Positions 58,601-61,498 of a stretch of 64,000 nt of DNA are shown one piece after another; the stretch's first letter is position 1; each line of letters starts with the position of its first letter. The notes beneath the pieces are model-generated. The model had not been told where the DNA came from and searched no databases. It saw nothing but the letters and a program-made list of their open reading frames with translations. The translations under genes were made by a program, and so were the position numbers. Origin of the DNA: Actinomyces oris (GTDB lineage Bacteria; Actinomycetota; Actinomycetes; Actinomycetales; Actinomycetaceae); NCBI RefSeq assembly GCF_001937665.1, contig NZ_MSKL01000008.1, positions 98,123-162,122 on the forward strand, given 5' to 3'.

Positions 58601-59101
58601 GCAGGCGTCTGCCGCCTTCAGGTCCCAGGTGCCGGGGCGGCGAGGGTCGCCCAGCGCCCGACGCAGAGGACCGTTGGCGGTGCCGGTGAGGATGAGGCAG
58701 GTTCCCGCGGCTCCCTCGGTCCGGCCGGTGGGGTCAGTGCGGAGAGCCGAGGCGAGCGTGGGCAGGTCGTGGGCCGGTTCTCGGCGTTCCCCTGTGTCCA
58801 GGTTGTGCCGAGAAATGGCGGATACCAGGCGACGGTAACCGGTGGGGTTGCGAGCCAAGGCGGGCAGGTGGGAGCCGTCGGACAGGGTGAGCTCGGTGCC
58901 GTGAATGGTGGGCAGTCCGTGGGTACGACCCGCCTGGGCATGCTTGACGATGCCGGGCACGCCGTCGTGATCGGTCAGGGCGAGGGCCTCCAGACCGAGC
59001 TCGACAGCGGCCGAGGCCAGGTCATCGGGCTCGTTGGCCCCGTCGAGGAATGAGTAGGCGGAGTGGGCGTGGAGCTCGGCATAGCGGTGTCGACTGGTCA
59101 T
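55697..59101 (-). CDS. dnaE2: error-prone DNA polymerase III alpha subunit (DnaE2/ImuC)
   Basis: Translesion polymerase of about 1134 residues. The PHP domain begins [19 protein letters not shown]. Catalytic acids are present in [21 protein letters not shown] and [29 protein letters not shown] and an OB fold near the C-terminus ([30 protein letters not shown]) complete it. The start is set at ATG 59101, which overlaps the upstream DUF222-HNH stop as ATGA; an in-frame ATG lies at 59116. DnaE2 normally works with ImuA' and ImuB; neither is adjacent. Confidence 0.94.
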   Translation of the reverse strand: [1134 protein letters not shown]

Positions 59102-61486
59102 GTCTGTCCGTGGCATCTGGAGTGTGAGAAGGGTGGGGCCGCGTCGATGAGGGGTGCGAGTCCGAGGGTGTGGGTGGCTTTGGGGTAGGGGGTGGTCTCG
59201 TAGGCTCCGGCTTTCTGGCCGGGTTGGGGGCCGCGGGTCTCGAGGCGGGGGCTGCGGCTGCTGTTGGTGTTGGTGTTGGTGTCGAGAGCGGTGGGGGCGT
59301 GGACCTGGTCGTCGAGTGTTCTGTCAAGAGCCCGGTTGAAGCGGTTGAGGATGTCGGGGCTGATCTGCTTGCTCAGATCCCCCGGTACGACGGTGCCGGG
59401 GACGTAGCGCTGGTGGGGCCCGACCCTCTTGGGGTGGCGGGTGATGGTGCCGTCTGGGTGGCGCTGGTAGACGGTCCTGTCGGGGGTGTGCCAGGACAGT
59501 GTCCCGTTGGCCTGGTCACGGGTAAGGGTCCAGCCAGGGGTGTGCTTGAGGCGGTGGTGGGCCTCGCACAGGGTGGCGAGGTTGTCCAGGCTGGTGGTTC
59601 CGCCCTGGCTCCAGGCGGTGAGGTGGTCGATGTCGCACCGGCAGGCGGGGGTCTGGCAGGTGGGGAAGACGCAGGCCCGGTCGCGGGGCGCGTACCAGGT
59701 CGGCCAGGCCGGCCGGAGGACGGTAGCGGGTGCGGCCCACGTTCATGACGGTGCCGCTGACCGGGTCGGTGATCAGGCGCCTCCAGGTCCCGCCGGCGGC
59801 CAGGGCCCAGGCAGTCATGGCCGGCACCGCCGCGCTGCGCGCCCCGACCCACACCTCAGCGACCCCGCCCGCAGCAGACAACGAGGCAGCGGGATGGGAG
59901 ACGGGAGCAGTCGAGCACGGGGAGGCGGGAGTGGCCGGGCCGGGTCCGGGCAGACTCCTCCCACTAGTGGTGGGCAGAGTTCTCCTTACAGGTTCAGAGT
60001 CGTCAATACACTTACTGCCCTCGGGGTCACCGCTGCTGGCGGGGTCTCCCGGTGGTGCCAGGCTGTTCAGGGGGACGGTGACCTGGACGTCGATGTGGAT
60101 GTTCTTGGGGAGGGGGAGGTGTCCGGTGCCTGAGGGTGTCCACCACGGGCTGGCGGACCCCACCAAGGAGCTCAAGCTGCTCAGGAGGCCTTCCAGGGGC
60201 ACTCCGTCAGGCAGCAGACGACCCAGGGAGGCAGAACGCCTGGGAGGAGCTAAGGAGGCAGGCACTGGACCCAGCTCACTCAAACCGTCAAGACCACCAC
60301 CAAAGCCACCGGCGCTGCCCAGACCGTCACTACCGCCAGTGCCGGCACTGGTGCCGTCGTCGAAGGCATGCGTGGTCGCCTGGTAGGCGGTCTGCTGGCT
60401 GGTGCGTAGTGTGGACAGGGCCATCGAGGTCAGGGCGTCGGCGCGCAGCTGGGCCGGGGTGCGCTGCTCGCCGCAGGCCCGCGCGCTGGCGGCGATCGCG
60501 TCCGGGGTCGCGTCCAGCAGCAGCGCATCCATGGTCGGCAGCAGCAGGCGGACCTGGGAGACGCCTTCACCGGCGGGCCTGGGACGCGACACGCACCGAC
60601 GCTCCTGGTTGGCCCGGACGCGCTCCCTGTAGCCGGTGGGGTCTGTCTCCATCAGGGCCCGCTCAATGTCGCGTCCTACCTGGGACACGCTGCGCCTAGG
60701 AGCCTGAGGCAGGACCCGCTTCTGAACGGCCAGCGCCATCGGGGCCGGCACGTCTCCCAGGCAGCGAGTCACCAAGGACGCCTTGGCTGCATCCAGCACC
60801 CCGCACCGCTCCATGGCCTCAACCGGACTGAAACCCATGCTCATCAGGGCGCTGCCGTGATCCACGATCTGCCCGGCCCGACTCCGAGACAGACCCAGGC
60901 GAGCCGACAGCAGGCAGGTGGCGTTGAACCTGCGCTCCTCAAACCCCACCACCGACGAGACCCGACCGTCCGGCCCCCACTGACCCGGATGAGCAGACAG
61001 CTCACCACAGGCGGTCAGGCACGCCGCCGCCAGGGACTCACCCCACGACGCCCACGCCACCAGACGGTGACAGGCCGCAGCCAGCTCCCCCAGATCCCGC
61101 GCCCCCAGGCCCATGATCCCCGAGGCGCCGGCCTCCTCCACGGACACGACCCTGTGTCCCTCAGCGGCAGCCACCAAGGCCGCATCGTCCCCGCTGTCGC
61201 CAGCGAACAAGCCCTCGCTATCAACACTGCCGGCACCGTCAGCATCAGAGCCCTCACCACCACCGCCGCTGTCGTCGTCGTGGTGATCCTGGACGGTGAC
61301 CAGCAGGCGGGCCAGCAGCCCCTCCACCACACCGGCCAGCGCTCCACCAGCGACCAAGGACCCCAGCAGACCCGCCACGTCCTCAGCGCAGCCCACAGCC
61401 CCCGCCGACGCGCCCCCGGCAGGCACACCCAGCACCCCGGCCGCACCACCGACCGGGACATGAGGAAGCACACCATCTTCGAACAT
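59098..61486 (-). pseudogene. DUF222-HNH (13E12-type) protein, frameshifted before the HNH motif
   Basis: Start ATG 61486 (MFEDGVLPHVPVGG). Residues about 70-420 form the DUF222 domain (RFNATCLLSARLGLSRSRAGQIVDHGSAL). After RYRPPAGLADLVRA, near codon 600, a run of four G on the plus strand (59685-59688) shifts the frame, and the open frame runs to a false end at 59516. Dropping one base restores CVFPTCQTPACRCDIDHL...CEAHHRLKH, a complete HNH motif with zinc cysteines. It also gives a 155-residue tail whose TGA overlaps the dnaE2 ATG. The corrected protein is 795 residues. Start is leaderless and lies in a LexA-like site. Confidence 0.85.
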
Positions 61487-61498
61487 ATGTACAGTATA
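61479..61498 (-). promoter_or_regulatory. LexA-like site and -10 box at the start of the DUF222-HNH/dnaE2 operon
   Basis: TCGAAC-ATAT-GTACAG (61479-61494) has one perfect half of the actinobacterial SOS box; the other half matches at three of six positions. The -10 TATACT (61498..61493) ends 6 nt before the ATG at 61486, so the box covers the transcription and translation start. Confidence 0.55.

Follow-up and report, generated by a model that had tools for sequence, protein, structure and literature searches.

Why should a gene for a DUF222-HNH protein stand between an SOS-type promoter and dnaE2, the gene of an error-prone DNA polymerase? We met this order in Actinomyces oris, in a 64,000-nucleotide stretch of contig NZ_MSKL01000008.1 (assembly GCF_001937665.1, positions 98,123 to 162,122), the whole of which we call the window. 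DUF222-HNH proteins, also known as the 13E12 family, are repeated in actinobacterial genomes, and we know of no settled function for them. A preliminary description of the window had read the two genes as one translationally coupled damage-response unit. From comparisons of the sequence with that of relatives, we consider it likely that an SOS-controlled, mobile-like 13E12 gene sits in the dnaE2 promoter, and that it belongs to a dispersed family whose copies bring their own SOS promoter with them. Relatives without the gene, with an intact gene and with remnants of it form a natural series in which to ask if the nuclease has an effect on damage-induced mutation or is a mere passenger.

A LexA-type box around the start codon

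The promoter, the two frames of the DUF222-HNH gene and dnaE2 lie as follows:

61493..61498, minus strand: TATACT, the -10 element, followed by six bases and then the ATG, which by its sequence would give a leaderless start
61479..61494, minus strand: LexA-type box CTGTACATATGTTCGA with the DUF222-HNH start codon within it, a motif shared with recA, lexA, ruvA and imuA' of the same genome
59516..61486, minus strand: frame from the box ATG, with an N-terminal region and DUF222 (residues 191-362, about 60401-60916); stop at 59516
59680..59742, minus strand: the frames of DUF222 and HNH diverge here, by frameshift or assembly error; relatives have intact copies
59098..59742, minus strand: second open frame, with the HNH domain (core at about 59542-59637); stop TGA at 59100..59098
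59098..59101, minus strand: ATGA, in which the stop of the HNH frame overlaps the start of dnaE2, read from the sequence
55697..59101, minus strand: dnaE2, error-prone DNA polymerase (NF004225, 1269.5 bits against a cut-off of 939); another in-frame ATG at 59116

The ATG at 61486 lies inside CTGTACATATGTTCGA, the reverse of which is TCGAACATATGTACAG. The sequence bears out the earlier account of TATACT, six nucleotides and an ATG within a TCGAACATATGTACAG-type LexA-like box, as well as the placing of this SOS-type promoter ahead of DUF222-HNH and dnaE2, in that order, and the NF004225 score confirms that the polymerase is DnaE2. Across the 3.1 Mb genome the pattern GWACNNNNGTTCGA occurs nine times, against two occurrences of a reversed-pattern control, and the box thus exceeds what chance would give. 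Six of the nine sites stand at recA, lexA (two), ruvA, imuA' and the DUF222-HNH gene of the window, and the remaining three, for each of which one flanking gene was scanned, adjoin genes of lipoyl ligase type, tRNA synthetase type and alpha/beta hydrolase type. The gene that we call imuA' is named by its position beside an IMS-family ImuB and by likeness, having no Pfam match; its start codon likewise falls within the box. With a box common to recA, lexA and ruvA, the promoter of the window gene appears to be of LexA (SOS) type. All 46 genus sites tabulated (9 + 16 + 21) have TA at the corresponding place relative to the box; the last T of TATACT itself belongs to the box pattern.

Genes for ImuA' and DnaE2, too, can have their start codon within a LexA-type box (window 61479-61494; L132; L187 at 4449; L249). 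Because the start codon is part of the box, several DUF222-HNH, ImuA' and DnaE2 proteins begin Met-Phe or Met-Tyr, and a leaderless SOS start may be widespread in the group. A near-perfect tTGTCRgtg-8-TannnT motif of the RecA-independent, PafBC type (given in an excerpt of PMC5656591) is merged with the LexA-type box in L165, L103, L105, L106 and L187; such merged promoters suggest dual damage control.

The preliminary description had also reconstructed a single DUF222-HNH gene running down to 59098. Both domains are indeed present (PF02720, 38.3 bits against a cut-off of 24.4; PF01844, 29.2 bits against 21.4), and the HNH frame holds all the motif residues, DH, N and HH (CDIDHLTAWSQGGTTSLDNLATLCEAHH). 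They are split over two frames that part at about 59.69 kb, however, and the frame opened by the box ATG ends at 59516. Since DUF222 and HNH share one frame in most gene-bearing relatives (e.g., L155 and L163), the window copy appears to reflect a recent frameshift or an assembly error. The window genome has a single DUF222 match at E 0.001, the one at dnaE2.

One genomic cluster holds imuA'-imuB, a thymidine kinase gene, a SatD-family gene, an unknown gene, DUF222-HNH and dnaE2 (window 61834-64000; G000:C8 161553-165700). Two of these are upstream neighbours within the window:

61834..62640, minus strand: unknown protein without a Pfam match at 0.01, upstream in many genus loci
62637..63581, minus strand: SatD-family protein, upstream in many genus loci

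dnaE2 loci with and without the gene

We searched 200 genomes of the family to which A. oris belongs for DUF222 and dnaE2 matches. For the genus, 37 genomes were searched, 33 of which have dnaE2 at 1e-150, and upstream regions were read at 31 genus loci (30 fetched plus the window) and at 10 loci from other genera of the family; G183 and G195, genus genomes in which dnaE2 is present and its coordinates are not listed, fall outside the 31. A DUF222-HNH gene stands directly upstream of dnaE2 at 15 of the 31 genus loci (one cut by a contig end, some damaged), and 2 more (G152 and G160) hold remnants with the box retained. At the other 14 the gene is absent, and in 13 of these the box precedes dnaE2 itself: in 11 it lies within about 70 nucleotides of the dnaE2 match, in another some 109 nucleotides away, and in the last, which has a variant box, some 151 nucleotides away. 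The sole gene-free genus locus with no box before dnaE2 is that of G176.

A set of 80 named dnaE2 loci, 21 with a dnaE2 at least 69% identical and 59 others, gives a similar picture. Among the 21, the gene is found in 9, namely in A. oris (three strains, one cut by a contig end), A. naeslundii, A. sp. ZJ308, A. bowdenii, A. ruminicola, A. glycerinitolerans and A. succiniciruminis, and remnants are found in 2, A. johnsonii and oral taxon 170; copies have decayed in several species with the box retained. Nine of the 10 gene-free loci in this class have a box at most 400 nucleotides from dnaE2. At the 10 dnaE2 loci from other genera of the family, no copy lies directly upstream in the same orientation; in one such genome (G101) a copy lies on the opposite strand, about 3 kb from dnaE2. 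Conservation of the adjacency in relatives is partial, holding at about half of the genus loci read and in a second group described below, and failing at the gene-free and remnant loci.

The junction between the two genes varies more than their order. We scored 13 genus loci in which a script found the HNH frame and measured up to the ATG closest to the polymerase motif; some of these junctions have in-frame dnaE2 starts further upstream. The gap from the gene end to this ATG is 24 nucleotides in six and 29, 41, 67, 233 and 233 in five, and the ATG is reached only in the window and in A. naeslundii (G131); the window lacks a stop at the position where relatives have one. The ATGA overlap is accordingly real in the window (59101..59098) and not conserved, as 11 of the 13 genes end at least 24 nucleotides before dnaE2. 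Translational coupling, as had been proposed, is unsupported in the window because the box-ATG frame is broken and the overlap is not kept in the genus; as a general rule, we reject it on the 11 junctions without overlap.

Outside the genus, 2 of the 59 other named loci, those of Actinotalea caeni and Pseudactinotalea terrae, carry a DUF222-like HNH gene immediately before dnaE2 and in the same orientation. In A. caeni the box is TCGTACACATGTTCGA, with the ATG inside, and the gene overlaps dnaE2 as ATGA; in P. terrae the box has two mismatches and the overlap is GTGA. Neither protein matches PF02720 even at E 10, and their HNH scores are 22.2 bits (A. caeni, above the cut-off) and 14.2 bits (P. 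terrae, below it, with D in place of the central N of the motif). Both are matched by a DUF222-HNH profile built in this analysis (73 and 67 bits, respectively), and the A. caeni protein aligns over about 350-450 residues with PF02720-positive proteins at 28-30% identity (E down to 2e-23). The proteins of about 500 amino acids at L187 (4457-5983) and L218 (4421-5980) are DUF222-like HNH proteins that have no PF02720 match yet align with PF02720-positive proteins. Judging by these alignments, the Pfam model misses this DUF222-like branch. Other placements near dnaE2 also occur: Georgenia sp. EYE_87 has a DUF222 copy downstream and convergent, and Ruania albidiflava a profile match upstream and divergent.

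In the group of A. caeni (24 genomes, with 20 readable dnaE2 loci; G204 is unreadable upstream), the gene precedes dnaE2 at 3 of the 20 loci: A. caeni, P. terrae and G218, where the HNH gene ends about 11 nucleotides from dnaE2. Near dnaE2, 11 of the 17 gene-free loci show a box that departs from the pattern at no more than one position, and a dnaE2 start codon often falls within it. The A. caeni genome holds a single match to its HNH protein, the one at dnaE2.

Boxed copies elsewhere in the genus

Is the box a mark of the pairing with dnaE2? It had been presented as part of that unit, and we rejected this candidate. Copies of the gene elsewhere in the genus have a start codon within the box in 21 of 25 cases (20 ATG, 1 GTG), with the GTTCGA half in 18 and the GTACGA half in 3; one of the 25 (L119, at a contig end of G154) may represent the front end of the copy linked to dnaE2 in that genome. 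Reading from the box codon, 20 of the 21 stay open through at least 334 codons or as far as the available stretch reaches; two close early, L117 after 21 codons and L145 after 406. A special tie between box and pair is unsupported, because the box also stands at the copies elsewhere and, in relatives, at dnaE2 without the gene.

The homology that accompanies these copies extends beyond the coding region. Between dnaE2-linked and other copies, similarity at the DNA level starts 13-187 bases ahead of the ATG (in many cases 72-127) and continues in pieces to about the gene end. The linked and distant copies of G166 show patches of 96-98% identity amid stretches of 80-84%, a mosaic that fits copying and conversion of gene plus promoter inside one genome. 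Several copies in one genome, a trait of mobile elements, are found in relatives. In a tree of 26 rows (38 loci were tried, 12 without the cut motif being left out), the dnaE2-linked copies do not form one clade, and a linked and a distant copy are sisters in G131 and again in G166. In addition, the synonymous divergence (dS) of the gene between A. ruminicola and A. glycerinitolerans is twice that of dnaE2, as expected if the copy was replaced.

We also considered DUF222-HNH copies as usual heads of SOS operons, which the regions downstream of distant copies do not support: in 20 such regions of about 5 kb, we found no genus-type box and, reading the open frames, recognised no SOS gene. In G166 (L300) the dnaE2-linked copy has a broken frame and about 1.46 kb of additional sequence. 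G197, a genus genome in one contig, has boxed DUF222-HNH copies (L102 and L141) and no dnaE2 match at 1e-150, and the family thus seems not to need DnaE2.

The gene is under purifying selection that appears weaker than that on the polymerase. Whole-gene ratios of nonsynonymous to synonymous divergence (dN/dS) are 0.28-0.45 for eight pairs, with two further pairs at 0.15 and 0.25, and those of dnaE2 are 0.07-0.14 (six pairs). Over the last 250 codons the ratio is 0.26-0.69, with weaker constraint on this HNH-containing part in the A. oris group (0.38-0.69). Three proteins match no defence-system model, and the PHROGs matches of three proteins are HNH endonucleases throughout; among PDB sequences, the DUF222-HNH profile has no match.

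Competing explanations and known systems

As a transcription unit, the locus would be LexA-repressed, with the 13E12-type DUF222-HNH gene first and dnaE2 second. Damage would lead to RecA-driven cleavage of LexA and free the box, and DUF222-HNH and dnaE2 would then be transcribed together from the ATG onward. One copy of the family would have taken over the dnaE2 promoter, so that dnaE2 would depend on the box at the start of the DUF222-HNH gene. The HNH motif indicates that the protein probably cuts DNA, and the family may have spread in a homing-like manner, through recombination that is induced by breaks and timed to SOS, a state rich in breaks and RecA, taking dnaE2 along. With its first gene broken, the unit of the window genome would, as assembled, mainly express dnaE2 behind a leader of about 2.4 kb. 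A bolder version, which we think unlikely, makes DUF222-HNH a selfish, self-copying nuclease family timed to SOS that repeatedly captures the dnaE2 promoter through its box-plus-ATG start and recruits the mutasome, coupling its own spread by induced breaks to mutagenic repair; if so, an element would spread by breaking DNA while tied to the error-prone repair of those very breaks.

Several observations weigh against the main reading, an SOS-controlled copy from a dispersed family that carries its promoter. Four of the 25 copies elsewhere in the genus lack such a box, and the left box half in the window, CTGTAC, differs from TCGAAC at three positions, as it does at most other genus sites. The window genome holds one copy, and calling the family mobile rests on the copies and mosaicism found in relatives. 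The label "linked" is somewhat clustered in the tree (6 changes against a shuffled mean of 8.9, a count as low being reached by 21 of 500 shuffles); some of the linkage is thus inherited. Finally, purifying selection (dN/dS 0.15-0.45) and the tight, similar order in three non-Actinomyces genomes leave room for a functional tie. Because the order recurs and the protein is under selection, a shared repair role of the HNH protein and DnaE2 is possible. Its fullest form is a dedicated SOS repair unit in which the DUF222-HNH protein would nick or trim damaged DNA for an ImuA'-ImuB-DnaE2 mutasome, co-transcription setting their ratio. The close junctions of the second group (ATGA, GTGA and the gap of about 11 nucleotides), the selection on the whole gene, the lone matches at dnaE2 in A. 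caeni and the window genome, and a partnership proposed in PMC4181829, cited here from an excerpt, speak for such a unit. We nevertheless judge it rather unlikely: 14 of the 31 genus loci do without the gene, 2 keep remnants and the window copy is broken; the HNH-containing end is the less constrained part in the A. oris group; G197 has boxed copies and no dnaE2 match; and neither SOS gene nor box was seen beside the 20 distant copies.

Much of the same patchiness would fit a gene that landed by chance between promoter and dnaE2, with no consequence, as would the decay, the spacing of up to 233 nucleotides and the absence of a co-oriented upstream copy from the ten loci of other genera, G101 having its copy on the opposite strand. 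Copy number argues otherwise in the A. caeni group, where a rough estimate (from 41 matches at E 1e-8 over 24 genomes of about 3-6 Mb each, some matches being fragments of a single copy) predicts well under 0.1 genomes with a co-oriented upstream copy and 3 of the 20 readable loci have one; the group was chosen because of A. caeni and P. terrae, so that only G218 is unbiased among the three. Pure accident of this kind strikes us as quite improbable. Control by another damage regulator, such as a PafBC-type promoter with LexA irrelevant, is very hard to credit. The motif does occur at a fixed place, with 8 of 9 positions, in L165, L103, L105 and L106, and one base shifted in L187; there is no clear -35 match in the window and its close relatives, nor at that place in 22 dnaE2 boxes of other genera, and the window box matches the lexA, recA, ruvA and imuA' sites. 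A PafBC-type -35 element in all of these promoters is correspondingly a weak candidate, strong in a few only.

We found no report in open-licence literature of a direct DUF222-HNH/dnaE2 unit, of a start codon inside the box family-wide, or of a promoter copied with the gene. For Mycobacterium tuberculosis, a LexA-controlled partnership of 13E12 HNH proteins and DnaE2 has already been proposed: an excerpt of PMC4181829 counts ten 13E12-family HNH-domain genes as LexA targets and suggests a system for repair that includes RuvABC and DnaE2/ImuAB. Excerpts of other papers describe 13E12 members with mobile-element characteristics in the LexA regulon of M. tuberculosis (PMC5005354, citing Davis et al. 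2002); five putative HNH endonucleases together with imuA', imuB and dnaE2 among RecA-dependent genes after mitomycin C (PMC8151990); and REP13E12/HNH endonuclease/DUF222 grouped among repeats (PMC10589994). The HNH nuclease MSMEG_1275 of M. smegmatis, in an excerpt of PMC9416677, cuts chromosomal DNA and was upregulated where DNA-repair transcripts rose. It resembles the present protein as an HNH-type nuclease and differs by an ArsR-type regulator; the main text of that paper never uses the word DUF222, and the excerpt mentions no dnaE2 operon. The M. tuberculosis 13E12 family is closer, sharing repeated HNH proteins, LexA control and mobile-element character. While its members belong to the LexA regulon according to these excerpts, here the SOS unit places a 13E12-type gene ahead of dnaE2, as the first gene, with its start codon in the LexA-type box, and neither feature is mentioned in the excerpts. 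The locus likewise resembles the ImuA'-ImuB-DnaE2 mutasome in having dnaE2 clustered with imuA'-imuB, whose own LexA-type box lies about 6 kb upstream, and it differs from that system in the DUF222-HNH gene that stands here between the SOS box and dnaE2.

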